NCBI GenBank assembly: GCA_947175645.1
Contig: CAMWNP010000022.1
Span: 1-51,035, forward strand
From: an uncultured Porphyromonadaceae bacterium
Lineage (GTDB): Bacteria > Bacteroidota > Bacteroidia > Bacteroidales > Muribaculaceae
Reading direction: 5' to 3'
DNA: 51,035 bases
Translations under genes and position numbers: made by a program
Shown: positions 1-50,040 of the stretch, piece after piece
Position numbering within the stretch: the first letter of the stretch is position 1
Layout: each line of letters opens with the position of its first letter
Notes under the pieces: model-generated
Database searches by the model: none
What the model saw: the letters and a program-made list of their open reading frames with translations, nothing else
What the model was told of the DNA's origin: nothing

Positions 1-57
1 CTCTTTCCAAGAGATATGCAGTAGATTTCAGTAGAAATAGTATATAGCCAATCGGAG

Positions 58-1242
58 ATGAGTGAAGGAAGCAAAAAAAAGAATTATGTTCGTTGTCTGG
101 GAAAGACACTGGGCATAACTGCGCTCGCGTTCATTCTCTCATATCTGTTCATGGCACCCTTTTCCGTTTCCACCGCGGCATTCTTTTCTACTCCGGAGAA
201 GAATGATTTCACCATCACTGACTTCTATAATATCGTTGCAGATTCACGGGCAGTCAGCCATCTGGATGATCACGTGGTAGTGATAAACATAGACAACAGC
301 GACCGTCAGGAAATTGCCGACATACTTCAAATAGTTTCGCTTTGCGGACCTAAAGCCATAGGCCTTGATGTGATGTTTGACGACCGCCGAGATGGCGATG
401 AGGTTCTCCATGATGCGTTCCGTGCATGCCCCGGTCTTGTAATGCCTCTGTCAATGCGTCCTGAGAACGACCCCATGCTGTTCCATATCAACTCCTCATC
501 CTATTTTTATCCCGACGGTGAGGCCGACACCCTGAAACTGGGTGTTGAATATGCCGCAGCCAGCATGCCCTCCAAATATGAAGGAAGCATGGTGAGGGAA
601 ATGCAGACCTTCTTTCCAACAATAAGTGGAGATACCGTAATCTCTTTCCCGGCAGCACTCGTAAGACTGGCCGATGAGGAGGCGTACAACCGTCTGCGGG
701 CCCGTGGCAACCGGCTGGAATATGTAAATTTCCACTCGCGCAGGTTTGCCATTCTTGAACCCGAGTCACTGATGGAGAATGCCGACACCATTTCCGGGAG
801 AGTTGTTCTGATAGGTGCGATACATGAATTAGGAGACCTTCATCCCACCCCGGTGAACTCGGCGATGCCCGGTGTGCTGATACACGCCCACTCCATAGCC
901 ACCGTCATGGATGGAGCCTATATGGAACGCCTGCCTCAGTGGATGAATGTGATGATAGGTTTTCTGCTCTGTTTCATAGTGGTGTTCACCCATGTCACAT
1001 TCCGCAGCGGTGCTCTGGGACTGTTGCTCCGTCTGATTCAGTTAGGTTTGCTGTGGGTGACTGTGCAAGTAGGCTACTGGTTTTTCATATACCACAATCT
1101 GATTATCGACTTCTCCTATGCCCTGGTGATGCTTGCCTTCGGACTCTTTGCCTGCGACATCTGGAACGGAGTATACACCATAATCAAGAACCTTATTGAG
1201 AAATACCGACAAAAGAACGAGAAATCAAATACAACAATATAA
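58..1242 (+). CDS. CHASE2 domain membrane sensor protein
   Basis: The 394-residue protein has one membrane segment near residues 17-37, a large extracytoplasmic region (about 45-290) and three closely spaced membrane segments near 294-315, 319-345 and 348-372. This layout, with the early VVVINID strand, the GLDVMFDD stretch and the late PGVLIHAHSIATVMDG motif before the membrane, is that of CHASE2, an extracellular sensory domain. CHASE2 usually precedes a kinase, cyclase or phosphatase; here only about 20 basic residues follow the last helix, so no output domain is attached and signalling must go through partners. It is the first visible gene of a seven-gene exported caspase cluster, and the next ATG lies 8 nt after its stop. 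The true operon start may be left of the window. The ATG has GGAG 2 nt upstream, too close for a normal ribosome site. The CHASE2 call is strong; the ligand is unknown. Confidence 0.85.
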   Translation: MSEGSKKKNYVRCLGKTLGITALAFILSYLFMAPFSVSTAAFFSTPEKNDFTITDFYNIVADSRAVSHLDDHVVVINIDNSDRQEIADILQIVSLCGPKAIGLDVMFDDRRDGDEVLHDAFRACPGLVMPLSMRPENDPMLFHINSSSYFYPDGEADTLKLGVEYAAASMPSKYEGSMVREMQTFFPTISGDTVISFPAALVRLADEEAYNRLRARGNRLEYVNFHSRRFAILEPESLMENADTISGRVVLIGAIHELGDLHPTPVNSAMPGVLIHAHSIATVMDGAYMERLPQWMNVMIGFLLCFIVVFTHVTFRSGALGLLLRLIQLGLLWVTVQVGYWFFIYHNLIIDFSYALVMLAFGLFACDIWNGVYTIIKNLIEKYRQKNEKSNTTI

Positions 1243-1250
1243 CATTGAAA

Positions 1251-2093
1251 ATGAACAGAATAATAGTTTTACTCATAGCCCTTTCGCTCACCGCCATTTC
1301 GGCACTTGCCAACTATACGCTATACAGTTTCAGCGGCAACATCACCATCAGACAGGCCGGGAAAAATGTCACACCGGAAAAAGGGATGAAGGTAGGTGCG
1401 GCTGACGAAATAGTCATTGGCCCAGGGGCTACAGTGGAAATATTCAACGCCACCACCAAGGAGATATTCAAGTCCACCGGTGAGGGTAAAACCACACCCA
1501 TGGGGATCATGCTTGATGCCCGCAAACAGTCAGGCAACACGTTCGGTGCCATCAACGACCGATGGACCATGAGCAAAAGCGGAACCCCGAACAACAACCG
1601 CCTCTACACCGAGGGACTGGTTAAACGATCAATGCACATCTATGACCCCGCCGCTGAAAACAAGGAAGTAGCACCTCACGAACTCGCCCTGCACATATAT
1701 AATATCATGAGCAATCCTTCCGGACTGGAAGCGGCCGAATATCCCACAGAGATGACGTCGGCCCACCTTGACGGAAACGGAATGAACTTCCGTGTGGCCA
1801 ACACGCTTGCATTCCCCATTTACATGAACGTGATAAAATATCAGGAAACAGGCGCCGGATCAATTGAACTCTCGGAACTGGGTCAACCCATCAGCAGTTA
1901 CGTGATTCTTCCCGGACAATCCATAACCCGCGAACAACTCACAGGTTTAAATCCGGCTGAAAGTCATATTCTCATACTCACATTCTGCCGTTTCGACATA
2001 GACAGTCTTATTGAGGAAACAAACAAACTCCTCAAAGAACCGGTCAACGAAAGCCCTGACGTAGAACTCCCGGTTTACCTCAAACGTCTTTGA
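1251..2093 (+). CDS. exported FecR-like / DUF4384-like protein
   Basis: The start is taken at ATG 1251, not the in-frame TTG at 1245, because it gives a clean signal peptide (residues 1-20, cut after ALA). Residues about 21-90 read like a FecR-type domain: a strand with SFSGNITIRQAG, then KGMKVGAADEIVIGPGATVEI. Such domains are common outside iron signalling and occur near CHASE2 proteins in other bacteria. The C-terminal half (about 175-250) has a strand-rich stretch with PIYMNVIKY and a later LPGQSIT that resembles DUF4384, a domain also seen two genes downstream next to the caspase. There is no catalytic motif. It probably acts as an envelope partner of the CHASE2 protein. The FecR resemblance is by eye and moderate; the export call is strong. 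Confidence 0.7.
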   Translation: MNRIIVLLIALSLTAISALANYTLYSFSGNITIRQAGKNVTPEKGMKVGAADEIVIGPGATVEIFNATTKEIFKSTGEGKTTPMGIMLDARKQSGNTFGAINDRWTMSKSGTPNNNRLYTEGLVKRSMHIYDPAAENKEVAPHELALHIYNIMSNPSGLEAAEYPTEMTSAHLDGNGMNFRVANTLAFPIYMNVIKYQETGAGSIELSELGQPISSYVILPGQSITREQLTGLNPAESHILILTFCRFDIDSLIEETNKLLKEPVNESPDVELPVYLKRL

Positions 2094-2129
2094 TAATTAA
2101 TTAAAATCAAATAAAATATAAAACCAATC

Positions 2130-4214
2130 ATGTTATCCTTCCATCACATCTTGCGCGGAACAGGCACCATGCTGACCATAGCGCTGTTTGCAATAGCGGC
2201 TAATGGCCAGGGGAACCAATCACGCAACGACTATGACTTCAAGTTCAAGAAGTCGCCTGAACATATCACACGCTTCCAGAACACCCTTTATGCCGGTCAG
2301 GAGAAAAAGGTCATGACAATCTCAGGAAAAGAGATAGCCGAACTCCCCCAGCCCCTCACCGGATTGGAGATCAGCCCCGCCGGAATCAACTTCCTTGCCC
2401 TCACCAACGGTAAGAAGCCCGCTGCGGTATATCTCTACAACACCCGACTTGTTGATGACCAGATCAAGAAGTTCAGCAACAAGAAGTATGGTGTACCCAG
2501 TGGCGTAGGCTACACATCCGATGCCAAATGGCTGCTTGTGGCAACTGATAAAGGTATTCTTCAGATTGACCCCAAGACCTTTGAGGTTGTAAAAACCATA
2601 CCTGCCGAATTCCAGCCTTCAACACTCCTGATGAGTACTGACGGTTATTATCTTGCCGCAACTGACGGTCACACGGTAACCGTATATAATTTCGAGGAAA
2701 GCAAACCCCGAAAAACATGGAAACTTGATGAAAACGTCACTGAAATCCGTTTCTCTCCTGACAATTCACAGTTTGCAGTGCTAACTGACGACGGACTTCT
2801 CAGCATCTACGACACCCGCAACTTCAGCCTCAAACAGGATGTGGACGAACTGGGCGAAGCGATTGACTTCGACTATAATTTCGACGGCAAATATGTTGCT
2901 GTGGCCACATCACCCTCAACCGTAGAGGTCATAAATCTTCTGCGCCCCACAGAGCGTGAGACCGTAAAGGCAGACACCACCGGAATCACACGCCTGTACT
3001 TTGTTCCTGACTCACGCATGAACACCCTGCTGGCCTACAACCAGGCAACCGGTATTCACGCGAAACGTATGCACGGTCTGGAACCTTACTACGGCAAACT
3101 GATGAACGATGAAGTTGCTTCATTGATGAACGAATGGATGAAGATGCGCCCCGGTGAAACCATGGATGAGTACAAACGCCGTGTCAATGACGAGTCCCGC
3201 GCCAATCAGCAGCGTCTGTTTGAAGATGAGATATCAACCCGATTCGCAAACAACCTCATATCAATGGCCGAAGTTACTCTGGGTAAATATGACCGTGCGA
3301 GCCAGATGCTTGAAGTGGACTTCAACAACATGCCCTCGATCTTCCTTCCCGTACCCGAGGCTGATGTGACCTCATTCAATTCTCCCGGTGAACTGGAGTT
3401 CTATGACACCCAGTACGGTCTGCTCCCCGATGACTCGTTTGAACTGATCTATGCCAAGGTACGCCACAGCGGCACCGGCAAATCCTATACCTATGACAAT
3501 CTTGCCCGTAAAACACTGAGTTTCATGGAAGGTGATGACAATGTCGTGTCAATAGCCGTAATCCAGCAACAGCAGATGGAGGAGATGAAACTTCAGGAAC
3601 TCCGCGAGCGGATCATTGCCGAGGCGAAAAAAGCAAACGTCATTTCCGATCATACCCACATCACAGTTGACTCACGTGTAGAACCCTCCTACGATGCCAA
3701 CGGTAAGAAAATCCTGAACTACATAGTATCATTCACTTATGAAGTTGAACCCGAATTCTCCGCAAAAGAAGACTTCGGACCCGGCAAATACCACATCGAT
3801 GAATCAGGTGCTGCAAGTTCAATGCTCCGCATTGTCAAGGAAGCGTTCGAGGGAGACATGGCCAAGTATGTTGCATCAGGCAAGAAACTCAATGTCAAGA
3901 TTTCCGGAACAGCCGACGCATCTCCCATCATAAGCAATATACCCTACGACGGTGTCTACGGAGACTTCGAGGATGAGGTGGTCTATAAGAACAACGCTCT
4001 CTCAACCGTATCAGTCAAGACCAAGGAACGCATTAAAGAAAATGAGCAATTAGCATTCCTGCGCGCCTTCGGAGTAAAGGATTTCCTTGACAAGAACGTT
4101 GACGGACTTAAGGATATGACAACCGACTACCGGTATCTTATCAACGTAGCCGAAGGAAAGGGTGCGGAATTCCGCCGTATCACCGCTGACTTCACCTTCG
4201 TTGACGTATTCTGA
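2130..4214 (+). CDS. exported beta-propeller (WD40/YVTN-like) protein with module shared with the caspase
   Basis: This 694-residue exported protein has a signal peptide ending near residue 26; an internal ATG at residue 14 could be the true start. Residues about 45-310 form repeated four-strand blades (for example VTEIRFSPDNSQFAVLTDDG), typical of WD40/YVTN propellers used as protein-binding platforms. Residues about 333-455 contain a module (W..., then E-T-MDEYKRRV, LGKYD, and finally SYTYD) that recurs in the next gene, the caspase, near residues 451-576. The C-terminus (about 560-694) has ISGTAD, a NNALS stretch and an RAFGVKDFL helix that vaguely recall OmpA-type peptidoglycan-binding domains; that is only an inference. 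It lies between the FecR-like gene and the caspase and is probably a scaffold for the protease. Confidence 0.75.
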   Translation: MLSFHHILRGTGTMLTIALFAIAANGQGNQSRNDYDFKFKKSPEHITRFQNTLYAGQEKKVMTISGKEIAELPQPLTGLEISPAGINFLALTNGKKPAAVYLYNTRLVDDQIKKFSNKKYGVPSGVGYTSDAKWLLVATDKGILQIDPKTFEVVKTIPAEFQPSTLLMSTDGYYLAATDGHTVTVYNFEESKPRKTWKLDENVTEIRFSPDNSQFAVLTDDGLLSIYDTRNFSLKQDVDELGEAIDFDYNFDGKYVAVATSPSTVEVINLLRPTERETVKADTTGITRLYFVPDSRMNTLLAYNQATGIHAKRMHGLEPYYGKLMNDEVASLMNEWMKMRPGETMDEYKRRVNDESRANQQRLFEDEISTRFANNLISMAEVTLGKYDRASQMLEVDFNNMPSIFLPVPEADVTSFNSPGELEFYDTQYGLLPDDSFELIYAKVRHSGTGKSYTYDNLARKTLSFMEGDDNVVSIAVIQQQQMEEMKLQELRERIIAEAKKANVISDHTHITVDSRVEPSYDANGKKILNYIVSFTYEVEPEFSAKEDFGPGKYHIDESGAASSMLRIVKEAFEGDMAKYVASGKKLNVKISGTADASPIISNIPYDGVYGDFEDEVVYKNNALSTVSVKTKERIKENEQLAFLRAFGVKDFLDKNVDGLKDMTTDYRYLINVAEGKGAEFRRITADFTFVDVF

Positions 4215-4290
4215 ATCCTTAATACCTGAAAATCAGGCTCTTACAAGCCCATAAAGACAAAATTCTCTCCCTGCCACTATCCGAGGATAT

Positions 4291-4333
4291 TCCGATGTGT
4301 GTGAGGCTTAACAAGTCTTTCGCACACATCGGA
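4291..4333. other. intercistronic hairpin
   Basis: TCCGATGTGTG (4291-4301) is the reverse complement of CACACATCGGA (4323-4333), with a loop of about 21 nt. It lies in the 218-nt gap between the propeller gene and the caspase gene. No U-tract follows, so it is not a standard intrinsic terminator. It may act in mRNA processing or stability and set the ratio of caspase to scaffold. Confidence 0.6.
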
Positions 4334-4432
4334 AAGGCCTCCGGCGGAGGAAGATGCAATCAAAACATATTCATTTTAAAACCGAACCATTTTAACTTAA
4401 GATTCATTTCTGAAGTATTCTGAACTAAACCG

Positions 4433-7087
4433 ATGAAAAGGACACATCTACTTGTTTTTTCATTTTTGTTTCTTAGTGCAGCCGTATGTTTCGCCACACG
4501 GCTCAATCCGGTTGACAAGTCTGTATCCAGGAGCGGTAATCCATCAGTTTCCGACATAGAACTTGAGTCGGATTCTGTTCTGATGGACTCCCTGTGCCTC
4601 GACTCCATCCGCCAGGCCCAACGGATCGAGAGTTTTCTCATACCGGCGGAAAACAGTTACAAACGTCTGCGTTCAATGCGCTTCGACGGGTTTGATGAAA
4701 AGGACTATTATCCCGCTCTTATAGAATGTTACGATGCAAACGTCACATTCCTCGACTCCCTTCCCGCGCATCCCCATGCTGAAGCGAGCAAAGGGGTTAT
4801 TCTTGACATCTACAAGGATTTGCTGGACGGTGCATATTACTTCTCAGAGCAGGGAAACAAAAAAGAAATGACCCGTTTGGCACGTGCCTATCTCGATGTG
4901 GAGGATATCCCCGCGATGGCCGGAGAAGAGATCCGTTACGAACAGCGTGCCCTTCCCACAATAGCCTATATCGCTGCTTCAGGAGCATATAACTCACAGC
5001 AGTTCGAAGATGCAATAAGATACTTCGACAAATATCTCGCCACCCCTGATCAGAATCAGCGGGAAAGCGTCTACACATATCTGGGACAGGCATGCCTTTA
5101 CGCCAAAGATTATGACCATGCAGTCACCTCAATGGCTGAAGGAGCCGTGCTGTATCCCACAAATTACAATCTGCTCACACTGGGTCTGCAGGCTTGCATT
5201 GACGGTGGTCACGGGGAAAACATCCCGTTCTTCCTTGACAAAGCACTGCTTTTGCGTCCCAATGATGAGCAACTGCTCAACATCCAGGGTCAGATGTACG
5301 AGGACCGTCAGGAATATCGTGCCGCACTGGATGTGTATCACCGCCTTGACGAAATAAAGCCCAATAACCTGAGCATAATCAAACACCTGGCCTTGTGTTA
5401 CTACAATCTCGGCGTGCACCACTATAACTGTGCTATCCTGAGTGAGGATGAAAAAGAGGCCAAACGTCACCGCCGGCAGTGCAACGCCTATTTCACCGAG
5501 GCATCGCAGAAACTGGAGGAAGTGCTCGCAAACGACCCTCTGTCAATAAAATATCTGAAAGCGCTGGCCGTGACCTACGGATGCTGTGACGAGAAAGAAA
5601 AATTTGAATCGGTCACCACCCGCCTGCGTGCCTTGGGTCAGCAACCCGGCAAGTCGGCCATGCCGTCAATGATAGCCTTCAAGGAGGATGACACGGCCAA
5701 CTTTACTTCCGGAGGTAATAACAACGTGGCAGTCAATCAGATACCGACATATTCAGAGTTCGGAAAAACCTTCATCACCGATGGACTGGCAAACTGGGCA
5801 ACCCGCGGCAAATTTGAAAAGATGGATGAATACACCGCGCGCGTAAGCGAGAAGAACGTGCAGGCTGAATACGTAAGGCTCTGCAAGGAAGCCGAAAAAG
5901 CATACCTTGACCAGTATGGAAGCAAACTTCGCATAAACGACCTCAAGTTAGGGGCATACGATCCTGACAACGAAACCTACATCATTCACTCAGATTACGG
6001 CGACATGACTCTGAATGTGCCTATGAAGAACAATGAGGCTGAACTGTTCGGGGCATCGTGGAACAAAATTAAACTGCGCGCGCCCAAATTCTACATCCAT
6101 GACGATAAGCCCGCAATCTCCTCTCTCACGTTCCAGACCAATGGCGGACGCTCATACACTTATGATGCGGCGGATGCTGCCACCTATGCCTACACCGATG
6201 TGATAATTGACTTCAACTCAATCATTAACAGCGGAGTGGCTGCTGCAGGCAAGACCGTTGCCGAACGTCCCGCAGCCAACGGAGGGTCAACCGTAATCAC
6301 CCGTCAGTCAGATGTTGACAAGAACATTCCGGTTGTGAAGCGTCAGAACGACAACACCATTGTCCTTATCTTTGCCAACGAGAACTATCAGAATGTGTCA
6401 AAGGTTGCCTCCGCGCTTCATGATGGCGATATCTTTGAGGAATACTGCCAGAAAACGCTGGGTATTCCGGCTCACCGCATAAAATATTTCAAGGATGCCA
6501 CTTTCGTTAACGTGCTTGAAGGACTCGCTTTCCTGAAAAACGCCGTCAAATCACAGAATGGCGATGTAAACGTCATTGTGTACTATGCCGGTCACGGAAT
6601 GCCTGACGAAGCCACCAAGGATGCGTTCCTGCTCCCTGTCGACGGCAACGCCACCATCTCAGAAACCTGCTTCTCGCTCAACCGCCTCTATGACGAACTT
6701 AACGCCATGAACGCCAACTCCACAGTTGTGTTCCTTGACGCATGTTTCAGCGGAGCGCAGCGAGGCGATGGCATGCTTGTTGGAGCGCGAGGAATAGCGA
6801 TCAAGCCCAAAGCCGCTTCTCCAAAAGGAAACATGTTTGTTCTGTCAGCAGCGTCAGGTCAGGAAACAGCCATGCCTTACACTGAAAAGAATCATGGAAT
6901 GTTCACATATTATCTGCTTAAGAAACTTCAGGAGAGCAAAGGTAATGCAACACTGAAGGAAATCAGTGATTATGTGATCAGGAATGTCAGCGAACAGTCA
7001 AATGTAATAAATAAAAAACCGCAGAACCCGCAGGTTTCACTCTCCGGCAACATGGGTGAAATGTGGAAAACACGGGGTCTACGCTAA
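4433..7087 (+). CDS. exported TPR-caspase family (C14) protease
   Basis: The 884-residue protein begins with a signal peptide (about 1-22, cut after CFA). Residues about 140-400 are TPR-like helical repeats (for example YTYLGQACLYAKDYDHAV). Residues about 451-576 carry the module shared with the upstream propeller protein (KMDEYTARV, LGAYD, GRSYTYD). Residues about 640-870 are a caspase/metacaspase p20-like domain: His721 in YYAGHG and Cys771 in DACFSG form the expected dyad, followed by SAASGQETAMPY and HGMFTYYLL, both family hallmarks. Caspase-like proteases cut after Arg, Lys or Asp; substrate preference cannot be read here. Unlike most bacterial defence caspases it is predicted to be secreted, so it should act in the periplasm or at the surface. 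The next reading frame starts 11 nt after its stop. Confidence 0.9.
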   Translation: MKRTHLLVFSFLFLSAAVCFATRLNPVDKSVSRSGNPSVSDIELESDSVLMDSLCLDSIRQAQRIESFLIPAENSYKRLRSMRFDGFDEKDYYPALIECYDANVTFLDSLPAHPHAEASKGVILDIYKDLLDGAYYFSEQGNKKEMTRLARAYLDVEDIPAMAGEEIRYEQRALPTIAYIAASGAYNSQQFEDAIRYFDKYLATPDQNQRESVYTYLGQACLYAKDYDHAVTSMAEGAVLYPTNYNLLTLGLQACIDGGHGENIPFFLDKALLLRPNDEQLLNIQGQMYEDRQEYRAALDVYHRLDEIKPNNLSIIKHLALCYYNLGVHHYNCAILSEDEKEAKRHRRQCNAYFTEASQKLEEVLANDPLSIKYLKALAVTYGCCDEKEKFESVTTRLRALGQQPGKSAMPSMIAFKEDDTANFTSGGNNNVAVNQIPTYSEFGKTFITDGLANWATRGKFEKMDEYTARVSEKNVQAEYVRLCKEAEKAYLDQYGSKLRINDLKLGAYDPDNETYIIHSDYGDMTLNVPMKNNEAELFGASWNKIKLRAPKFYIHDDKPAISSLTFQTNGGRSYTYDAADAATYAYTDVIIDFNSIINSGVAAAGKTVAERPAANGGSTVITRQSDVDKNIPVVKRQNDNTIVLIFANENYQNVSKVASALHDGDIFEEYCQKTLGIPAHRIKYFKDATFVNVLEGLAFLKNAVKSQNGDVNVIVYYAGHGMPDEATKDAFLLPVDGNATISETCFSLNRLYDELNAMNANSTVVFLDACFSGAQRGDGMLVGARGIAIKPKAASPKGNMFVLSAASGQETAMPYTEKNHGMFTYYLLKKLQESKGNATLKEISDYVIRNVSEQSNVINKKPQNPQVSLSGNMGEMWKTRGLR

Positions 7088-7098
7088 AGAACTCACCG

Positions 7099-7977
7099 AT
7101 GAACACGCTCCGCACTTACATAACATTGATTCTGCTGTTACTGCTCTCTCCGGCACCTCTGTCGGCTCAGGGTGTGGTAACGGTAAAAGGTGAAAGCACA
7201 TTCTACGGCGAGAGTTCCCACTCACTGGCCGACTGCAAACGTTTTGCCCTTGAACAGGCACGCATTGCGGCTCTTGCCAAGGAGTTCGGCACAACGGTAT
7301 CGCAGGACATTTATCAGCGTGACGTTCAGTCAGGTGCAGGTGAAAGCAACTATTTCTCCATGCTTAACCTGACGGAAGTCAACGGTGAATGGCTCTCTGA
7401 CGAGGGTGAACCGCAATACACCATAGGTCATGACTCCAATCACAATTACATTGTGACATGTGTGGTCCGCGGTAAGGCACGCAAACTGACCAATGAGGCG
7501 GTGCAGTTCGACGCTGCCGTATTGCGGAATGGCAACGAACGCAGATTTGCCGATACACGTTTCCGCAGCGGTGATGAAATGAAACTGTTCTTCCGTGCTC
7601 CACTGAGCGGATATCTGACAGTATATCTGATTGATGACCAGAGAAATGTGTACTCAATCCTCCCCTACACTAACGGCACGGACGGCATAATCCATGTGGC
7701 TCGTGACAAAGACTACGTGTTTTTTGATACCGCCAAAGGCGACCCGCAATATGGCGAGCCTGACGAACTGGTGATGACCGTTGACGGCGATGTGGAAAGG
7801 AATCAGGTTTATGTGCTGTTCTCTCCTAACAACTTCAACCGGGCGCTTGACAACAACAACGGTGCAGGTCTGCCCCGCTCTCTATCCTACGAAGATTTCA
7901 CCCGCTGGCTAAACACCGCACGTAAACGTGACCCAAAGATGGGCATGAAGGTGATGCATCTGGAAATAACAAAATAG
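7099..7977 (+). CDS. exported LPP20-like / DUF4384 domain protein
   Basis: The start is ATG 7099, which puts a signal peptide (MNTLRTYITL..., cut near LSA) at the N-terminus; an earlier in-frame ATG at 7063 would overlap the caspase gene and add non-signal residues. The first half (about 30-140) has an Ala-rich helix (RFALEQARIAALAKEFG) and a final VRGKARKL strand, like LPP20-type lipoproteins. The second half (about 145-270) matches DUF4384: RSGDEMKLFFRAPLSGYL, VYLIDDQRNVYSILPY and a later VYVLFSPNNF. DUF4384 proteins often accompany exported caspases and Ser/Thr kinases. There is no enzyme motif. It is probably an accessory of the caspase, in the same operon (11 nt after it). Confidence 0.8.
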   Translation: MNTLRTYITLILLLLLSPAPLSAQGVVTVKGESTFYGESSHSLADCKRFALEQARIAALAKEFGTTVSQDIYQRDVQSGAGESNYFSMLNLTEVNGEWLSDEGEPQYTIGHDSNHNYIVTCVVRGKARKLTNEAVQFDAAVLRNGNERRFADTRFRSGDEMKLFFRAPLSGYLTVYLIDDQRNVYSILPYTNGTDGIIHVARDKDYVFFDTAKGDPQYGEPDELVMTVDGDVERNQVYVLFSPNNFNRALDNNNGAGLPRSLSYEDFTRWLNTARKRDPKMGMKVMHLEITK

Positions 7978-8012
7978 AAACCTTTTTTATTAACCATAAC
8001 AATCACAAGAGA

Positions 8013-8648
8013 ATGAAAAAAGTAATCGCTCTGCTGCTCGCACTTTGTGTGATGCTACCGGCAGCCATCGCGGCCGACAACAACAAAGCCCTTCAGAAAG
8101 CCCGTAATAAGGAACGCAAGGAGGTGATGAAACGCTACAAGAAAGAGGGATGGAAACTCTTCGGCAGTTCACGCAGCCTTGAAGTAGTTCTGCTCTCACA
8201 CTGGGCCAAACTTGACAAAGAAGGTGAGGACACCCGTGAAGTGATGGGAGTTTCAACCCGCAGCAAATCAAAGAATGTTGGTCTGCAGATGTCAATCAAC
8301 AACGCATGTCTTACCTACGCACAGCAGGCAGGCTCACAACTCAAGGGTAGAGTAATCTCCGACCTTGCAGGTGACGGCATTGACACTGATGCTGAATTCG
8401 AGCACTTCTATGCTGCCTACGAACGTCTTGTAGAAAAGGAAATCAAGGGTGAGATGGAGCAAAGTTACTCCATAATCCGTGATAATCCTGACGGAACTTA
8501 CGAAATAGAAACTTACTTCACCGTCAGCGAAAACGCAGCAACCAAGGCTCGTCTGCGCGCACTGGAAAACGCTCTCAAGGAGAGTGAAGCCGCTCAGAAA
8601 TATGCCGACAAGGTTTCGCAGTTCGTACGCGAAGGATTCAATAACTGA
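8013..8648 (+). CDS. small exported LPP20-like protein
   Basis: This 211-residue protein has a clear signal peptide cut after AIA (residue 20). The mature part is highly charged and mostly helical: a basic segment (RNKERKEVMKRYKKEGWKLFG), an Ala-rich helix with ACLTYAQQAGSQLKGRV, then ERLVEKEIKGE and a strand with TYEIETYFTV, ending in a helix. The order helix, strand, helix resembles the LPP20-like half of the preceding protein, suggesting two related partners. There is no catalytic motif. It follows its neighbour by 35 nt in the same orientation and is followed by a long hairpin, so it may close the first transcript segment. The function is unknown. Confidence 0.75.
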   Translation: MKKVIALLLALCVMLPAAIAADNNKALQKARNKERKEVMKRYKKEGWKLFGSSRSLEVVLLSHWAKLDKEGEDTREVMGVSTRSKSKNVGLQMSINNACLTYAQQAGSQLKGRVISDLAGDGIDTDAEFEHFYAAYERLVEKEIKGEMEQSYSIIRDNPDGTYEIETYFTVSENAATKARLRALENALKESEAAQKYADKVSQFVREGFNN

Positions 8649-8672
8649 TACTTACAGTTTCCGTAGCGTATT

Positions 8673-8730
8673 GTCATAAGTGCCTCAGCGGCGTTGCATC
8701 AGGAAGCACGTCGCTCCGGCACTGCATGAC
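8673..8730. other. intercistronic long hairpin
   Basis: GTCAT, AGTGCC and AGCG (8673-8690) pair with CGCT, GGCACT and ATGAC (8712-8730), broken only by small internal loops. It lies in the 204-nt gap between the small LPP20-like gene and the transglutaminase gene. There is no following U-run, so it is more likely an mRNA processing or stability element than a strong terminator. Confidence 0.6.
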
Positions 8731-8852
8731 AAACCCTGAGAGAGTATCCAGGAATCTGTGTTTTGGCACACCCTCCCACAAATCCATTTCAAAATGCGAT
8801 ATGAGGACTGTCTCCCTCTGTTCGCTCCCAATTCATTCAATCCAATCCCCGC

Positions 8853-10382
8853 ATGTTAAAATTCTGTTCAACAGCCGTTATTCTTCTTGCTCTCAGCCTT
8901 ACGGCACAGGCTCAGAACAACGCCACAAAAAATGATTCAGGAAACGGGTCGTTCGCTGATTTCCGAAAGGGAATTCTCGAGGACTACAATAAATTCCGCA
9001 ATTCAATCCTGGAAGACTATGACCGCTTTTTGGAGGCGGCATGGGATGACTATCAGCAGATGCGCGGGGTGGACCGATACCAGACACCCAAGCCACATCA
9101 GGCGCCGGTTATACCTGTTACCGACGTTCCTGTGAAAAAGCCTGAGGTCAAGCCGCTTCCGGAACCTGAGAAAGTGAAGCCCGAGGTGAAACCTGAAGTA
9201 AAACCGGAGTTGAAACCGGTGCAAAAGACACCCGTGCCGGAGAAAAAGCCTCAACCGTCAGCAACTCCTGCTGATTTTCCCGGAAATGATGCATTTGTGT
9301 TCCCGTTCTACGGAATGGAGATGAAGATAACAGACAGGAAAGCAGACTTGTCAAGACGCCTCACCTCAACCAATGATTTTGCCGCTCAATGGAGGTCGCT
9401 GGTCAATGATAAAGCAGAAGCCATGATTCCGTCCATCAAAAAAACAGCCACGGATCACGGACTGAATGACTATCTGACTTTCCGCCTGATTCGTGCCTAC
9501 GTGAATGCCCGCTATCCACAGGCTCACCATTCAGCACGCGTTGCACTGGAACATTATCTGCTGGCAAACATGGGCTATGACGTACGTCTGGCGGTAGATG
9601 ACAGCGGTACTCCCCTGTTGCTCATACCCTTCGGTCAAGATGTTTACGGACGTCCCTATCTGATGGTAGGTCAGCGAAAATATTATGTATTCCAGCCTGA
9701 CAATGTGCAGACACGCCCCGATGCCCGGATAATGACCTGCAAACTGCCCTCGAACTCTGACCTGGGCACCCCTATGGACCTGCGTATAAACGCATTGAAT
9801 CTGCCGGAGAAACAGAAGGAATTCAACATCTCATTCGAGGATATCACCCTGACCGGCAAAATTAACGAAAATATCATGACGGTGGTCTATGAATATCCCC
9901 AGATGGATATAGCGGACTTCGCCGTATCGCAACTCTCACCCGGACTCCGAAATGATCTGGTCAGTCAGATGAAAGAGCAACTCGCCGGACTCAGCGAGCA
10001 GGAGGCGGTTGACAAACTGCTCCATTTCACTCAGAGCGCTTTCGAATATGCTACCGACCAGGATTACCACGGCTTTGAAAAGCCCTACTTCCTTGAGGAA
10101 ATTCTGTTTTATCCGAAGTGTGACTGCGAGGACCGCTCCATTTTCTACACCTATATGCTCTGGAATGTTCTCGGCGTAGAGAACCATCTGCTGGCATATC
10201 CCGGACACGAAAGCGCTTCAGTTCATCTTGACGCACCTGTCACCGGTAACAGTTATGAATGGAACGGCAAAACCTTCTACATCTCGGATCCCACCTATAT
10301 TGGTGCGAAAACCGGAATGTGCATGCCGGTATACGCCAAAGTACGCCCCGAAGTGGACTACGAGTACAAGTCAGGCAAATGA
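8853..10382 (+). CDS. exported transglutaminase-like protease with Pro/Lys-rich spacer
   Basis: A signal peptide (cut near AQA, residue 20) is followed by a repeated acidic-aromatic stretch (FRKGILEDYNKFRNSILEDY, then FLEAAWDDY). Residues about 89-150 form a TonB-like Pro/Lys/Val/Glu spacer with repeated KPEVKPE units, long enough to span part of the periplasm. The C-terminal half is a transglutaminase-like domain: Cys425 in CDCEDRS, His458 in ASVHL and Asp479 in ISDPTY form the papain-like triad. Bacterial members are mostly peptidases rather than crosslinkers. It is the last gene of the caspase cluster, so the locus has two exported cysteine hydrolases. Its 3' end overlaps by 12 bp, tail to tail, the aldo/keto reductase gene on the other strand. 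Confidence 0.85.
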   Translation: MLKFCSTAVILLALSLTAQAQNNATKNDSGNGSFADFRKGILEDYNKFRNSILEDYDRFLEAAWDDYQQMRGVDRYQTPKPHQAPVIPVTDVPVKKPEVKPLPEPEKVKPEVKPEVKPELKPVQKTPVPEKKPQPSATPADFPGNDAFVFPFYGMEMKITDRKADLSRRLTSTNDFAAQWRSLVNDKAEAMIPSIKKTATDHGLNDYLTFRLIRAYVNARYPQAHHSARVALEHYLLANMGYDVRLAVDDSGTPLLLIPFGQDVYGRPYLMVGQRKYYVFQPDNVQTRPDARIMTCKLPSNSDLGTPMDLRINALNLPEKQKEFNISFEDITLTGKINENIMTVVYEYPQMDIADFAVSQLSPGLRNDLVSQMKEQLAGLSEQEAVDKLLHFTQSAFEYATDQDYHGFEKPYFLEEILFYPKCDCEDRSIFYTYMLWNVLGVENHLLAYPGHESASVHLDAPVTGNSYEWNGKTFYISDPTYIGAKTGMCMPVYAKVRPEVDYEYKSGK

Positions 10383-11381
10383 TGACAATATGTTGTCAAT
10401 CTCCTGAAGTTCCTCCTCTGAGAAGGATAGATTTTTCAAACATCCCAGACTGTCGTTGAGTTGGTTCACCGAACTGCATCCAACGATTACTGATGTCACC
10501 TTATCGTTTCTGAGAAGCCATGACAGCGACATCTCAGCGAGCGTCTGCCCTCGCCGTCTCGCCAGTGCATCAAGTTTTTTCAATTGTGTCACCAATTCCG
10601 GAGTAATCATCTCTCTGGTAAGATTTCGCCCCCTCCAGGCACGTGAGCCCTCAGGGATACCGTTGAGATAGCGGTTGGTAAGCACCCCCTGTTGCAAAGG
10701 AGAGAATGCCGTGAACCCAACTCCGTTTCGTGCGGCCTGATCAACTATCCCCTCATCAGCCTTGGCGCGGTCAATCATGTTGTAACGCCCCTGATAAATC
10801 AGACATGGCACATCACGGGCGGCAAGATAGTCGTAGGCGAACTGCGATGCCTCGTAAGGCCACTGCGAAATTCCCGCATAGAGAGCCTTACCCTGACGGA
10901 CCACATCAACCAGGGCCTGAAGAGTTTCCTCCATAGGGGTGGCCGGATCAAAACGATGGCTGTAAAAGATGTCCACATATTCCAGGTTCATCCTCCGGAG
11001 GCTCTGATCCAGCGATGCCATCAGATACTTTCTCGAGCCCCAGTTTCCGTAAGGACCGGGCCACATGTCATGCCCCGCCTTGGTTGTGATTATCATCTCA
11101 TCGCGGTAAGGACGGAAAGAGCCCTCCATGACGCGCCCGAAAGTCTCTTCGGCCGAACCATAGGAAGGCCCGTAGTTATTGGCCAGATCAAAGCAGGTTA
11201 TTCCGTGGTCAAAGGCAAAGTGCAACATATCCCTGCTGACTGACAATGGGTTGACATCACCGAAGTTATGCCACATTCCAAGAGATATGCGTGGAAGAAG
11301 TATTCCGCTCCTGCCGCATCTTTCATATTGCATGCCGCAGTCATAACGGCCGTCGTTGGCTTTATAATGAGGATTGATCAT
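10371..11381 (-). CDS. aldo/keto reductase, YghZ (L-glyceraldehyde 3-phosphate reductase) type
   Basis: The 336-residue protein is an AKR (alpha/beta)8 barrel that uses NADPH. The family signature is unmistakable: FDLANNYGPSYGSAEE near the N-terminus with the catalytic Asp and Tyr, TTKAGHDMWPGPYGNWGSRK with the catalytic Lys, and YSHRFDPATPMEETL with the catalytic His. The KAG-x-DMWPGPYG-x-WGSRKY pattern is specific for the YghZ group, which detoxifies L-glyceraldehyde 3-phosphate and methylglyoxal-like aldehydes. Length (E. coli YghZ is about 346) agrees. It is cytoplasmic. It lies downstream of an unknown gene on the same strand with a 78-nt gap, and its stop is inside the coding end of the transglutaminase gene on the other strand. 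Confidence 0.9.
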   Translation of the reverse strand: MINPHYKANDGRYDCGMQYERCGRSGILLPRISLGMWHNFGDVNPLSVSRDMLHFAFDHGITCFDLANNYGPSYGSAEETFGRVMEGSFRPYRDEMIITTKAGHDMWPGPYGNWGSRKYLMASLDQSLRRMNLEYVDIFYSHRFDPATPMEETLQALVDVVRQGKALYAGISQWPYEASQFAYDYLAARDVPCLIYQGRYNMIDRAKADEGIVDQAARNGVGFTAFSPLQQGVLTNRYLNGIPEGSRAWRGRNLTREMITPELVTQLKKLDALARRRGQTLAEMSLSWLLRNDKVTSVIVGCSSVNQLNDSLGCLKNLSFSEEELQEIDNILSSFA

Positions 11382-11459
11382 GAAATATTTTATTTAGTTT
11401 CTGAATATTAAATCCGGTTTGACAATAATGTATTCAATCTATTTCCTACAGGTGTTTCA

Positions 11460-11996
11460 TCACACATCATCACGCCCGTCAGAATCTTTTGCAACATACT
11501 CCGCATCCGGTCGGAGTTCAAGCATCTTTTTCCAACTGCTTGCCTGAAAGGGAATGACCACACGGCATTTTCTGTCGATATATCCGTATAGAACGGACTT
11601 TTCACAGGATTCCATTCCGTAGCCATCTTCATCCATGAAGAATTGACCGTCAGGATACAGCGTCCATTCAACTATCGCAACACCGTCGCTGAATTTTCCT
11701 ACTGAAAACCTCGGATAATAAGCCGAAAGCGAATAGGCATGAAAGTTATTTTCAAGCGATTCCACTCCTTTCCAATCAATATCATCATGAGTCAGGAAAG
11801 TGAGAGTCAGGTTTCGGTTCATCATCTCATATGCCTCCTGACTGCGGTGATCGATGAGGAAACGCTCACGCCAATACTGTGAGATTACTTCCTCTACTAT
11901 CTCCATATCCTCTCCCCAGCCCTTCTTACGATTGAAAGGGCTTTCGCTATAACGAGGATTCTGCAATTCTTTATAGAGTTCTTTTGGGGTCATCAT
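11460..11996 (-). CDS. conserved-looking cytoplasmic protein of unknown function
   Basis: I do not recognise this 178-residue protein. It has no signal peptide or membrane helix. It starts with MMTPKELYKELQNPRY, followed by a basic GWGEDMEIVEEVISQYW helix. The middle is strand-rich and aromatic (FHAYSLSAYYPRFSVGKF, VAIVEWTLYPDGQFF), which would fit a small alpha/beta fold such as an NTF2-like or immunity-type protein, but that is a guess. The C-terminus is charged and may be disordered. The upstream 327-nt region holds two palindromes and a possible -7 box, so it is probably the first gene of a short transcript with the aldo/keto reductase downstream. Either of the two adjacent ATG codons could be the start. 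Confidence 0.6.
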   Translation of the reverse strand: MMTPKELYKELQNPRYSESPFNRKKGWGEDMEIVEEVISQYWRERFLIDHRSQEAYEMMNRNLTLTFLTHDDIDWKGVESLENNFHAYSLSAYYPRFSVGKFSDGVAIVEWTLYPDGQFFMDEDGYGMESCEKSVLYGYIDRKCRVVIPFQASSWKKMLELRPDAEYVAKDSDGRDDV

Positions 11997-23277: not shown

Positions 23278-24243
23278 TCACTTCACATACTTCACATAAT
23301 CGCCATACCCTTCGGCCTCCATCCGGTCGAGGGGTATGAATTTTAAGGAGGCGCTATTGATGCAATAGCGCAGTCCTCCCTCACTGCGTGGTCCGTCGGG
23401 AAAAACATGTCCCAGATGCGAACCGGATCGTGCTGATCTGACTTCAGTGCGTTTCATACCGTGTGAGAAATCCTCATGTTCAGAAATAACATCGGAGGAA
23501 ATCGGGCGTGTGAAGGCCGGCCAGCCACATCCTGAGTCATATTTATCAGTTGACACGAACAGTGGCTCTCCCGTGGTTATGTCAACATATATCCCCGGGG
23601 AAAACTGATGGTCGTATTCATTTGAGAACGGCCGTTCTGTGGCACCCTCCTGAGTGACCATCCACTGAAGGGGAGTAAGTTGCCGGCGAAGGGTTGCATC
23701 GTCCGGACGTACATACTTGTGTGCGGCATCAGGGCATATTTTCCCGGTGTGACGCGCCTTGTCGAAAAGCACCGGGCTTACATGGCAATATCCTCCGGGG
23801 TTCTTGTCAAGATAATCCTGAAGATATTGCTCGGCCGGATAGAAATTCACCAGTGGTCCGCGTTCAATGGCAAGACGTCCGCCCAACCGGTTGTCAAGGT
23901 CATCAAGGATATTGTCAATCACAGGTTTATCGGCCGGATCGGTATAATAAATGCCGGTTCTGTACTGCGTGCCATGGTCACCCCCCTGACGGTTTACTGA
24001 AACCGGGTCAACCGCCTGCAGATAGAGTCCGGTCAATTCAGGTAAGGTGACGCACTCCGGGTCATAATCAACCTTTACGGTTTCGGCAGCGTCTGTAAGA
24101 CCTGTGCATACCTCTTTATAAGTTGGATCAGCCACCCTGCTGTTGGCATAGCCGCTTATCGCTTCCGTAACCCCCGGAACAAGCGAGAACAGATGCTGGA
24201 TACCCCAGAAACATCCTCCCGCAAAATATATTGTCTTTATCAT
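23278..24243 (-). CDS. msrAB: bifunctional methionine sulfoxide reductase MsrA-MsrB
   Basis: The 321-residue fusion repairs oxidised methionine. MsrA occupies about 1-150: GGCFWG with catalytic Cys11 and the SGYANS and [10 protein letters not shown] motifs act on the S-sulfoxide. MsrB occupies about 165-321: [24 protein letters not shown] and [11 protein letters not shown] with catalytic Cys294 act on the R-sulfoxide. The two CxxC pairs that bind zinc in many MsrB proteins are absent. There is no signal peptide, so it should be cytoplasmic. It is convergent with the export operon and divergent from the MscS gene; no clear Bacteroidetes promoter was seen upstream of it. Confidence 0.95.
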
Positions 24244-45537: not shown

Positions 45538-45567
45538 AAAAAAGTCAGGAAATTCCTGACTTTTTTT
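45538..45567. terminator. bidirectional terminator shared by tRNA-Gln and the DUF262 gene
   Basis: GTCAGGAA (45544-45551) and TTCCTGAC (45553-45560) form a perfect hairpin between A6 and T7. The stop codon of the DUF262 gene (45547-45545, minus strand) lies inside the stem, so the last codons of that gene are part of the tRNA terminator. Confidence 0.9.
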
Positions 45568-48097
45568 CTTTTTCCTCATATTTACGCCGTTTTTCCACCA
45601 AATTTTCCATTTCCGTCATGATGGTTTTCGGTTCCATATTTTTAGCGCTGAAGCATAAAACCGCTTCTTTCTCGGTACCCGGACCTTGAATTACGGCATA
45701 ATTCATTGATTCATCACCTATGAGGCTCACTTCATCCCTCTCGTTCCACTCAAACAGGTGCTCTTGCCAGCGAAATTTGATTTTCACACCGAAAAGAAGG
45801 TCTGTTTCAGGCACAATATGTTCACTGAACACCTCTATCTCCTCCTGTGCCATGAAAGAATCCCGCTTTTCAGCATCCAGGAACACTCCGGGAGAACTCG
45901 GGTAAATAAGATAATGTCCGTAATAATTTCTTATCCATGCCCTATCCATCCGCTTCATGACAAAATCAAGCAGCATTGTCTGACTCAACAGATACAATCC
46001 ATGTTTCCACCAAACTTCCGGTTCAGGTTTATGCACCTGCTCCGGTTCCATCTTCATAAGGAATCTATGCACAGGTCCTGCGAGATTGGGATTCAACAGA
46101 TAATACGACCAGGACACCGGGCGGTTATTGAACGTGCGGTGTCCCTCGAGAGTAAGATATTCCGCCCACGAATCCTGGTTGAATTGTCTGAAGAAACTCT
46201 TCATCAGTCCGGATATGCCCATTGCTTCGGTCACTTCATTGCGAAGACAACTATCACGGGAGGAAACAGGACAAACCTCACTGAAGTACTCCTCAATCGT
46301 ACTCAGTTTAGTGTCAAAGTCACTCCAGTCCGGATTTCCATCAGCATCATAGATCAGACAACGGACTGAGCCTCTGAAAAATCCACGGCGCTCTGCCGCA
46401 GTCAGCACCTCCTCCCAGGTTTGTCCGGATGAGTGTATCCTTAATGAATCCCCTTCATCATCAAGAATTATCCTGACTTTGTCAATCTCTTCTGCCGCCC
46501 GCAGACCAACCGCACCATCGCCCACAGGTCCGGTCTCAACTATTGACTGATAGATATTGTGACTTTTCAGTTTGTCGAGATACTCCATGGCGTTTCTGGT
46601 GGCATCGATGCTACGTATCACATAATTGCCATCATGGTCAACACCAAAAATCAGGTTATGCACAATTCTCATCCATCGCCTGAACGATACTTCCTCATAC
46701 TCTCCTTCGCACAGATACTTACATACGGCGAAGAAAACAATCCGCTGCAACTGCGTGATAGTGGTTATCGGGACCGCAGAATCATCCTTAGTATATTGGG
46801 GCAGGAAATCAAACTGTTTCTCCCACGGCGGTGTGATCATTCCTTCCATATCACCTACCCATCCGTCAAGAACTTTCTGCAGTTTATGGAACACCTCAAT
46901 GGGTATGACCTTCTTTTCCCGGTCCTCTTCCCTGACGGGATAAAACTTGTACATTTCCAGGCCTAAATAGTGAGGTACAGGGTTCTCCTTATTATCTTCC
47001 CTCTCGTTGAGATATACGTAGGTGGAATTTTCACGCTCCTTTCCATCGCGCGTATCAACTATATAAGCACCGTTAACCTTGGCAAGAATCAGAGAATCAC
47101 TGAAGATGCGATTTATGAACGCATAGTAAATCTCATCAATGTTACACTCCGTGAGGGTCTCCTGATTATCGCGTTTGCATTTCACCTCCTTCCTTAGTTT
47201 CCAGAAAATGTCCGACCAGTCAGTATCCATCCTGATAGGGATACCGGCAATAGGATCCAGCAGAGCCTTCCATTCCCCGGAATCGGTGCTGTCTCTTGAG
47301 GCACGTTCCCGGATATATCCTATCAGATCTGCCTTGAAATTCTCAAAAAAAGTCAGTTCCTTACCGCGTGCGTTCATCTTGACATAAAGGTCGTCCGTCA
47401 ATCCGAACTTCTCAAGTGGCAGATGATAGAACTCAATCGGAGGATTATCTGATATCAGACTCTCCCAGTACTCTACAAAACGACTATTATCTTCCACATC
47501 GGCAAACAGTTTCTCGATGCCATCCTTCAACCTGTTTTTACGCCGGATTTCAGGCAGTTTCCTACGGTTGACATTTTCCTCGTTCTTATGGTATCCCCTC
47601 AACATACGGAGTGCGGAATTTACTGTCGGGTCCTGCTCCCATCGGGTAAAAAACCATCTTTGCCGGTGTATAAAATCCGTCACCGGCTCTGAAGCATCAT
47701 ACTTGGCAAAATTATCAGATTCACATAACCTGCGGAAAAAGTCACGCGAGGATATACGGGTTTCGTAACTGAAACGGCTGAGAACTTCCGCCGCTTCATT
47801 AAGACGTCCGGCCCGGAGTGCCACATACCAATGGAGCAGCCATAGGGTTGTAAGCCGCTGCTGACCGTCAAGCGGATAGATCCGTCCGTTTTCAAGCGTA
47901 CCGTAAACAAAGTCAAGCAACAGTGACTTGCTATCGTAGGGGTTCTCCCTGTTAAGAGCCTTCATCAGAGAACCGAGGAAAGTTTTCCTGAGATATTCCT
48001 TTCCATCTCGTCCCTGGGCATAGTCACGCTGGATTATTGGTATCTCAATCCTGTTATTACGCAGAAAGTTATAGAATGATTTGGCTGACGTTGACAT
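45545..48097 (-). CDS. DUF262 protein without nuclease domain
   Basis: The 850-residue protein begins with a DUF262 (ParB/GmrS-like) NTPase domain: IPIIQRDYAQGR near residue 18, YPLDGQQRLTTLWLLHWY near 72 (the DGQQR motif) and DLYVKMNARGKELTFFENFKADLIG near 245. The long rest (about 300-850) has no recognised domain and no HNH motif. DUF262 proteins include GmrS, the regulatory/NTPase part of type IV restriction enzymes that cut modified phage DNA. It follows the DUF262-HNH gene by 1 nt, so the two are probably subunits. The final codons lie in the tRNA-Gln terminator. Confidence 0.82.
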   Translation of the reverse strand: MSTSAKSFYNFLRNNRIEIPIIQRDYAQGRDGKEYLRKTFLGSLMKALNRENPYDSKSLLLDFVYGTLENGRIYPLDGQQRLTTLWLLHWYVALRAGRLNEAAEVLSRFSYETRISSRDFFRRLCESDNFAKYDASEPVTDFIHRQRWFFTRWEQDPTVNSALRMLRGYHKNEENVNRRKLPEIRRKNRLKDGIEKLFADVEDNSRFVEYWESLISDNPPIEFYHLPLEKFGLTDDLYVKMNARGKELTFFENFKADLIGYIRERASRDSTDSGEWKALLDPIAGIPIRMDTDWSDIFWKLRKEVKCKRDNQETLTECNIDEIYYAFINRIFSDSLILAKVNGAYIVDTRDGKERENSTYVYLNEREDNKENPVPHYLGLEMYKFYPVREEDREKKVIPIEVFHKLQKVLDGWVGDMEGMITPPWEKQFDFLPQYTKDDSAVPITTITQLQRIVFFAVCKYLCEGEYEEVSFRRWMRIVHNLIFGVDHDGNYVIRSIDATRNAMEYLDKLKSHNIYQSIVETGPVGDGAVGLRAAEEIDKVRIILDDEGDSLRIHSSGQTWEEVLTAAERRGFFRGSVRCLIYDADGNPDWSDFDTKLSTIEEYFSEVCPVSSRDSCLRNEVTEAMGISGLMKSFFRQFNQDSWAEYLTLEGHRTFNNRPVSWSYYLLNPNLAGPVHRFLMKMEPEQVHKPEPEVWWKHGLYLLSQTMLLDFVMKRMDRAWIRNYYGHYLIYPSSPGVFLDAEKRDSFMAQEEIEVFSEHIVPETDLLFGVKIKFRWQEHLFEWNERDEVSLIGDESMNYAVIQGPGTEKEAVLCFSAKNMEPKTIMTEMENLVEKRRKYEEKEKKSGIS

Positions 48098-48098
48098 A

Positions 48099-50036: not shown

Positions 50037-50040
50037 AGGA

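Follow-up and report, generated by a model that had tools for sequence, protein, structure and literature searches.

The window analysed here, a whole contig of 51,035 nucleotides from a gut Bacteroidales genome, carries at positions 58-10382 seven open frames, all of them on the + strand, that may encode a caspase complex located in the cell envelope, tethered to the wall and governed by an optional membrane sensor. We give this reading a probability of about one half. The arguments in its favour come from sequence, namely gene order, co-conservation, catalytic residues, a module shared by two of the proteins, heuristic export signals and gene fusions, and are presented below together with the alternatives on which they bear.

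The seven genes and their products

A seven-gene set with CHASE2, a propeller and a TPR-caspase, as described in the earlier note, is real, according to the open frames, profiles and fold. The genes run in one direction as claimed, and the intergenic gaps are, in gene order, 8, 36, 218, 11, 35, and 204 bp, so the "short gaps" attributed to the locus hold for four of the six but not for those of 218 and 204 bp. The starts of the second and fifth proteins were refined to ATG 1251 and ATG 7099 (TTG 1245 and GTG 7063, respectively, in the ORF list). Because the contig begins 57 bp before the start of the CHASE2 gene, the upstream side of this gene is not visible in the window. Promoter and terminator scans of positions 1-11500 stayed at shuffle level, no exact match to the Bacteroidetes-type promoter pattern was found within 58-10382, and the Rfam and tRNA scans returned only tRNAs, far from the locus.

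The first gene (58..1242, +) encodes a CHASE2 membrane protein of 394 aa, secure by profile (PF05226, 1.2e-20, 74.6 bits against a cut-off of 26.3) and corresponding to the one CHASE2 match found in the source genome. A hydropathy scan placed four hydrophobic segments at residues 13-31, 297-315, 318-336, and 348-366, with 28 residues beyond the last of them, and the Pfam scan of the 394 aa detected no cytoplasmic kinase, cyclase or GGDEF domain and no further family, in agreement with the lack of an output domain reported previously. A sequence-profile search of the PDB with this protein returned nothing. Next to it is encoded a secreted partner (1251..2093, +), with a small N-terminal beta domain and a C-terminal MSP/PapD-like domain in its model. 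The FecR-like name formerly given to this partner fails profile tests, and its FecR membership was rejected: PF04773 matched 0 of 27 relatives at E<=0.05 (Pfam scan) and nothing across the whole source genome at E<=10, and profile comparison with FecR (hhalign) gave 3.6%, a value obtained with a comparison set of four sequences; a distant FecR link may exist.

The third gene (2130..4214, +) encodes a putative scaffold composed of a beta-propeller (residues 32-316), a module shared with the caspase protein (318-475) and, probably, an OmpA-like domain at the C-terminus (about 508-694). The propeller fold is secure by structure search; with the full protein as query, propellers were among the best 50 matches listed of each of Foldseek and VIA, and OmpA was not among them. 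Regarding the C-terminus, PF00691 (OmpA-like) matched 8 of 15 propeller orthologs at E<=1, with 0.0026 as the best value and without a hit for the window's own protein, and residues D596, N638, L641, R645 and A646 are kept in 19 of 19 sequences, D596 and R645 being presumably the Asp and Arg expected of an OmpA-like peptidoglycan-binding domain. In addition, the strand-helix order in the predicted model is compatible with such a domain, and PDB searches with this region returned nothing, either by sequence profile or by single sequence. The newly found domain at the end of the propeller protein is thus probably, but not securely, OmpA-like.

The fourth gene (4433..7087, +) encodes a protein of 884 aa in which TPR, the shared module and Peptidase C14 (caspase) follow one another, the caspase domain being secure (PF00656, 4.1e-20, 72.9 bits against a cut-off of 21.4). 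The His-Cys dyad (H721/C771) was present in 18 of 18 caspase sequences, which bears out the TPR-caspase with intact dyad, for which proteolytic activity is predicted. Its identity as an EACC1-associated caspase was rejected (NF047832, 66.2 bits against a cut-off of 140). As judged by profile comparison, a newly found module of 155 residues is common to the propeller and caspase proteins (hhalign 98.8%, with 0.1 and 0.0 in the controls).

The remaining genes encode three proteins with predicted export. The DUF4384 protein (7099..7977, +) scored 22.7 bits with PF14326, below the cut-off of 27, and its orthologs matched in 15 of 15 cases at E<=0.1 (best 2.1e-7). The 211-aa protein (8013..8648, +) has 12 core orthologs 56-82% identical to that of the window and two outside the core set with 20 and 25% identity; its former name, LPP20-like, and the membership that it implied were discarded, with an LPP20 match in 0 of 15 orthologs at E<=0.1. 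Finally, the putative transglutaminase-like (TGL) protein (8853..10382, +) shows a Pro-rich linker after a repeated N-terminal motif. Its assignment rests on the C-H-D triad (C425/H452/D479), invariant in 17 of 17 TGL sequences, and on one weak PF01841 match (0.0031) among the same 17; the protein had no match to PDB sequences at E<=1.

The six proteins other than CHASE2 all passed a signal-peptide test, a heuristic and not SignalP, and the signal peptides proposed for all but CHASE2 held on that basis. In the named loci (L132-L201), 88-98% of the labelled frames per gene passed the same heuristic, versus 142 of 445 unlabelled frames. Such N-termini on all six proteins would also fit their release to act on other cells or on the host, the operon then being a secreted hydrolase set, but the probable OmpA-like wall tether and the membrane sensor favour retention, and we regard release as very unlikely.

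Conservation of the unit and of its two modules

Among 20 relatives whose loci can be read on both flanks, homology held at each of the seven positions in 189-190 of 190 locus pairs (99.5-100%), and for the next gene outside the unit in 2 of 190 on each side (about 1%), the gene before CHASE2 not being conserved; these pairs, as well as the CHASE2 places considered below, are related by descent and hence not independent. The earlier note had made its common system depend on conserved gene order in related genomes, and the order is indeed conserved. The seven genes form a conserved unit, although one that splits into a core and an optional pair made up of CHASE2 and its partner, the sensor not being obligatory.

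The named loci, found via the propeller protein and uninformative on operons that lack it, define these modules. Among the 69 loci with room, 67 had the caspase gene directly downstream of the propeller gene, the other two (L139 and L175) presenting a truncated frame at the contig end instead, and the genes for the DUF4384, 211-aa and TGL proteins were all near in 45 of 52 propeller loci. All 70 of 70 loci had CHASE2 and its partner either both present or both absent next to the propeller gene. The pair was found in 34 of 62 propeller-caspase loci and was absent from 28 of 62, and a CHASE2 anywhere in the genome was detected in only 6 of the 28 genomes with a pair-less locus; therefore, the core must work without CHASE2. 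The five core genes without the pair were found in Odoribacter lunatus and Phocaeicola plebeius (strain DSM 17135, no CHASE2), the propeller and caspase alone were retained in Bacteroides nordii and B. salyersiae, and the seven-gene operon is present in Barnesiella sp. WM24, whose record is not marked as MAG. The propeller and caspase core, mostly accompanied by the DUF4384, 211-aa and TGL genes, is wider than the CHASE2/partner pair and probably older. The tree is consistent with the pair having been gained once, at a later point, and then lost about five times; the clade concerned has held it in first position across long divergence.

This distribution would also fit a core acting as a housekeeping machine for envelope maturation or turnover, as in the processing of surface proteins, to which CHASE2 and its partner were added later for regulation, the pair then not accounting for the existence of the system. 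The 28 pair-less loci, the four species with the core or its first two genes alone and the single later gain all agree with it, whereas the pair kept first in its clade and the presence of CHASE2 beside other caspase and CHAT genes argue against it, and we consider it rather doubtful. Similarly, the repeated losses of the pair and its scattered occurrence (43 of 248 family genomes with CHASE2, and none of the eight other same-genus genomes listed) agree with defence or cell death acting on the envelope, in which an attack by phage, bacteriocin or contact weapon would trigger the exported caspase to damage the envelope of its own cell; the caspase family serves in known defence and death systems. 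However, the seven proteins had no match to PADLOC models except for one propeller-protein hit, weak at 14 bits, and the Pfam scan detected no toxin or pore family among them. Moreover, the idea of a defence island was rejected, with 1 of 38 flanking proteins (38 of 40 from 20 loci, two cut by the locus end) matching a PADLOC family at E<=1e-10. We thus hold a defence role to be unlikely.

CHASE2 beyond this operon and a proposed mechanism

Elsewhere in the order, other caspase genes or CHAT genes were often the neighbours of CHASE2, in gene orders that varied. In the order and family samples together, C14 was detected within 8 kb of 30 of 61 CHASE2 places (about 0.95 expected), a CHAT domain within 8 kb of 10 of 61 (about 0.34 expected), and one or the other at 38 of 61; at least nine of the 23 places with neither were less than 4 kb from a contig end. 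The proximity of an output-less CHASE2 to caspase genes, previously noticed in the window, is seen across the order. The PF00656 genome counts are lower bounds, because the genome search missed a caspase (L094) that hmmscan detects. Outside the order the association is weaker, with a caspase within 8 kb of 3 of 17 CHASE2 places in the short-frame class and of 5 of 57 in the long-frame class (about 0.2 expected each), classes set by frame length and not by domain scan. The G-numbered loci overlap the named ones (e.g., G328:C11 and L133, whose contigs are equally long), and the two sets were not pooled.

The enzymes beside CHASE2 and its partner included C14 caspases, CHAT proteins and transglutaminase-like proteins, as well as an aspartyl protease and a beta-lactamase-fold enzyme, each seen at one to two loci; the neighbours scanned for domains belonged to two hand-picked sets of ten each, and CHASE2 pairs also adjoin other proteins. 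In a wider set the partner was not found at 4 of 60 CHASE2 loci, one of which (L019) is at a contig end. Caspase frames near CHASE2 outside this operon failed the signal-peptide heuristic in 5 of 15 cases, with uncertain starts in at least three, and so did 1 of 4 CHAT proteins. Two single-case fusions, CHASE2-caspase at L094 and CHASE2-partner at L103, both carried, behind the fourth hydrophobic segment, a stretch resembling a signal peptide, compared to 3 of 39 control proteins. Tentatively, the output-less CHASE2 and its secreted partner could be a general signalling unit wholly outside the cytoplasm, into which different lineages plug different exported enzymes, in a manner comparable to the exchange of outputs by two-component systems; the operon of the window would then be a periplasmic caspase cascade and the most elaborate version of this unit.

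For the wall-tethered caspase complex, the following mechanism can be proposed. The propeller scaffold would be fixed to peptidoglycan via its OmpA-like C-terminus and would probably dock the TPR-caspase through the common 155-residue module. The caspase lacks this module in eight distant loci; therefore, docking via the module cannot be general. An envelope condition would be sensed by the periplasmic parts of CHASE2, located in the inner membrane, and of its secreted partner. Because a cytoplasmic output domain is missing from CHASE2, the signal would be relayed on the periplasmic side, presumably towards the caspase, in such a way that CHASE2 may activate proteolysis, and the caspase would then cleave envelope proteins. 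The DUF4384 and 211-aa proteins may be structural or regulatory parts, and the TGL protein a second cysteine enzyme that might serve as executor or lie downstream as a target.

Relation to known systems

EACC1-associated caspases (NCBIfam NF047832) act in the cytoplasm with NTPase switches. The protein described here shares a bacterial caspase domain with them, but it is below the NF047832 cut-off, and the Pfam scan found no NTPase among the seven proteins. Gingipain and C11/fragipain are exported clan CD cysteine peptidases of Bacteroidales, of the same clan as C14 and of different families, and we know of no CHASE2, propeller or TGL partner for them. A conserved operon tying an output-less CHASE2 to an exported caspase, a scaffold and a second cysteine enzyme makes the signal of CHASE2 and the role of bacterial caspases outside the cytoplasm directly testable, in Barnesiella sp. 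WM24 and, for the core, in P. plebeius DSM 17135. If the proposed reading is true, it would represent a bacterial protease pathway that operates in the envelope and not in the cell interior, with caspase-based proteolytic signalling that lacks the NTPase switches found in known cytoplasmic systems.

The open-access literature, to which our search was confined, yielded no description of this operon. The claim that an exported caspase is new in itself was too strong, since such proteins have been predicted before: one 2012 paper mentions a secreted caspase-YARHG protein (PMC3355149), and a metacaspase survey of the same year describes helices at the N-terminus as potential signal peptides (PMC3501461). 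The novelty is the assembly, not the exported caspase alone.

In the accessible text on EACC1-related conflict systems, CHASE2 is named as one variable C-terminal domain of a second component (PMC8195603). In the BiofilmReg operon of Burkholderiales, as far as the consulted sections describe it, a LysM-FecR protein adjoins a CHASE2 histidine kinase (PMC5192318). As here, a secreted partner is encoded beside a CHASE2 receptor; in contrast, the BiofilmReg CHASE2 is combined with PAS and kinase domains as well as a response regulator, whereas the present one has no cytoplasmic output and its partner has no PF04773 match. Finally, a cyanobacterial metacaspase-CHASE2 protein from Trichodesmium erythraeum also ties a CHASE2 with one plus three transmembrane helices to a caspase domain, and the available portions of the corresponding papers describe no such operon for it (PMC3501461, PMC2853523). 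In that protein, according to the same portions, one chain contains both, the caspase being at the N-terminus and assigned to the cytoplasm, whereas here the caspase is a separate exported protein accompanied by a scaffold and a second cysteine enzyme.

The seven-gene unit and its borders

The window comprises an entire contig from a draft genome of 3.17 Mb. Seven frames on its + strand occupy positions 58–10382, with the contig starting 57 bases upstream of the CHASE2 start; the next gene, for an aldo/keto reductase, lies on the opposite strand. The Pfam scan securely identified CHASE2 (74.6 bits) and a caspase domain scoring 72.9 bits in a protein that also matched TPR families, and it detected the beta-propeller in the scaffold protein. 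DUF4384 scored below the cut-off, and nothing above it was found for proteins 2, 6, and 7, these being the secreted partner of CHASE2, the 211-aa LPP20-like protein, and the transglutaminase-like protein (TGL). In CHASE2 (58–1242), the only match to this domain found in the genome, residues R83, D104, G253, D260, G272, and A277 did not vary across the 28 sequences aligned and are candidates for a ligand or metal site. The TGL N-terminus (8853–9080, and orthologs) repeats an FxxFRxxxLxxYxxF-like motif ahead of a Pro-rich linker, a possible pro-region.

Of the 295 genomes in the order sample, 13 carried CHASE2, as did 43 of the 248 in the family sample, with a recurring set of neighbours around it. 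Scanning the named genomes for the propeller family yielded 70 loci, including those of Barnesiella sp. WM24, Odoribacter lunatus, Bacteroides nordii, B. salyersiae, and Phocaeicola plebeius, and the order CHASE2-partner-propeller-caspase-DUF4384-LPP20-like-TGL was uninterrupted in 25 of them. Among the 20 of these 25 with both flanks (190 locus pairs), every inner position was homologous in 189 or 190 pairs, whereas the genes at −1 and +1 were homologous in 2 pairs each; therefore, the borders are those drawn in the earlier note, whose proposal of a seven-gene unit is supported by a gene order kept in relatives while the outer neighbours are not.

Elsewhere in the window, two consecutive large proteins encoded on the − strand (45545–50072), between tRNA-Gln (45464) and tRNA-Leu (50854), carry what we take to be DUF262/GmrS-like motifs, and are possibly a defence pair. 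From its motifs, the − strand frame at 23278–24243 is presumably a fused methionine sulfoxide reductase A-B.

A core and an optional CHASE2-partner pair

The locus consists of two modules, the core and the CHASE2-partner pair. Where the contig ran on for 1.5 kb or more past the propeller gene (69 loci), the next gene encoded a caspase in 67, and in the exceptions, L139 and L175, a frame cut off by the contig end came next. Of the 52 loci long enough to show DUF4384, the 211-aa protein, and TGL, 45 had all three nearby, and seven lacked one or more (L154, L179, L186, L192, L195 of B. nordii, L197, and L201 of B. salyersiae). Both pair members were present in 34 of the 62 loci with upstream room (35/70 overall), and in none of the 70 did CHASE2 or the partner alone adjoin the propeller gene. 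On a quick tree of the 70 propeller proteins (63 with known pair state, root not known), the pair required at least six changes, versus a shuffled mean of 20.6, and the starred branches alone forced at least four. All pair-bearing rows fell within one 51-row clade, and one gain plus five losses would fit this distribution. A CHASE2 match was found elsewhere in 6 of the 28 genomes whose core is without the pair. Because the core can clearly exist without the pair, the main rival to the simplest reading of the operon, namely that it encodes a periplasmic protease complex, is a housekeeping role of the core to which the pair was added as a regulator.

Near a contig end, locus L093 (G304:C12) showed a CHASE2 frame with an internal TGA adjoining the partner, and another contig of apparently the same genome carries a core without the pair (L183), perhaps a pair in the course of loss. 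Two propeller-caspase pairs stand in succession in L192, from a Bacteroidales MAG. Genome G328, which we take to be Barnesiella sp. WM24, carries all seven genes and, in addition, a second CHASE2-partner pair (L109) immediately preceded by a TGL gene.

Predicted export

All six window proteins other than CHASE2 were positive in our home-made signal-peptide test, in agreement with the signal peptides read earlier from the sequence. Among labelled complete frames of the named loci, the test was passed by 33/35 partner, 69/72 propeller, 57/60 DUF4384, 57/58 LPP20-like, and 53/54 TGL proteins, and by 53/60 caspases plus 7/8 caspases without the module shared with the propeller protein, against 142/445 unlabelled background frames and 11/35 CHASE2 proteins. 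Other caspase frames in CHASE2 loci (10/15), CHAT proteins (3/4), both beta-lactamase-fold neighbours, and the aspartyl protease passed too.

Association of CHASE2 with proteases, and known systems

Within 8 kb of the 61 CHASE2 places (55 genomes; 12 places from the order sample and 49 from the family sample, window included), a C14 caspase was found at 30, CHAT at 10, and either at 38, with about 0.95 and 0.34 expected from gene numbers for C14 and CHAT, respectively; as the places are related to each other, no probability is attached. The arrangements comprised caspase-CHASE2-partner (L018, L020, L021), CHASE2-caspase-partner (L017, L024, L115), CHASE2-partner-caspase (L016), caspase-partner-CHASE2 (L027), LPP20-TGL-CHASE2-partner-DUF4384-x-caspase (L116), CHASE2-caspase with no partner found (L129), and CHASE2-partner-CHAT (L101, L103, L126, L131), and the neighbour was a beta-lactamase fold in L097 and L105 and a TPR-containing aspartyl protease in L102. 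Four of 60 CHASE2 loci yielded no partner (L019, at a contig end, L026, L121, and L129). In L105, an 1852-aa alpha-2-macroglobulin-family protein (1531–10103) directly precedes CHASE2-partner, and the beta-lactamase-fold protein directly follows. In the phylum sample (44 of 78 genomes with a match examined, including each of the 14 others in which a short frame occurs), a caspase lay within 8 kb of 3/17 short-frame (392–498 aa) and 5/57 long-frame CHASE2 places, with about 0.2 expected in each set; the link thus extends beyond the order, but much more weakly, and is not restricted to output-less CHASE2. The genome under study has a second caspase gene (L001, contig C8, 17068–17742; 448 aa, Sel1-like repeats by eye) with a signal-peptide-like start, on a different contig from CHASE2, and one CHAT-domain gene (contig C36, 4946–5929; 4.4e-51), also away from it.

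Two fusions were detected, joining CHASE2 to a caspase domain in a 1307-aa frame (L094) and to the partner in a 633-aa frame (L103). Both show a charged, signal-peptide-like segment past the fourth hydrophobic segment, a feature of 3/39 control proteins, and this position would place the fused part outside the cytoplasm. The L103 fusion may reflect a lost stop codon, because a possible partner start codon lies in the same frame.

In the proposed protease complex, the scaffold would hold to peptidoglycan, the TPR-caspase would dock on it via the module common to both, and the CHASE2 pair would act on the exported parts, the CHASE2 chain itself having no predicted cytoplasmic output domain. Evidence for the proposed CHASE2-protease link comes from the conserved co-occurrence of the genes, from their having been re-assembled repeatedly with varied caspases and CHAT proteins, and from the two fusions; the signal could putatively run from sensor to protease or the reverse. 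We regard this mechanism as a well-founded hypothesis, not a result.

This two-module system, with its predicted exported caspase, is genuine and conserved and, as far as literature searches reach, undescribed, with no description of this seven-gene operon found in the open-access literature searched. Passages of published work describe a Trichodesmium CHASE2-metacaspase protein with its caspase placed in the cytoplasm (PMC3501461, PMC2853523), a FecR-type secreted protein adjoining a CHASE2 histidine kinase (PMC5192318), a caspase-related conflict system with CHASE2 among several variable domains (PMC8195603), and a secreted caspase-YARHG protein (PMC3355149). The component domains are already known, and what is new is their assembly.
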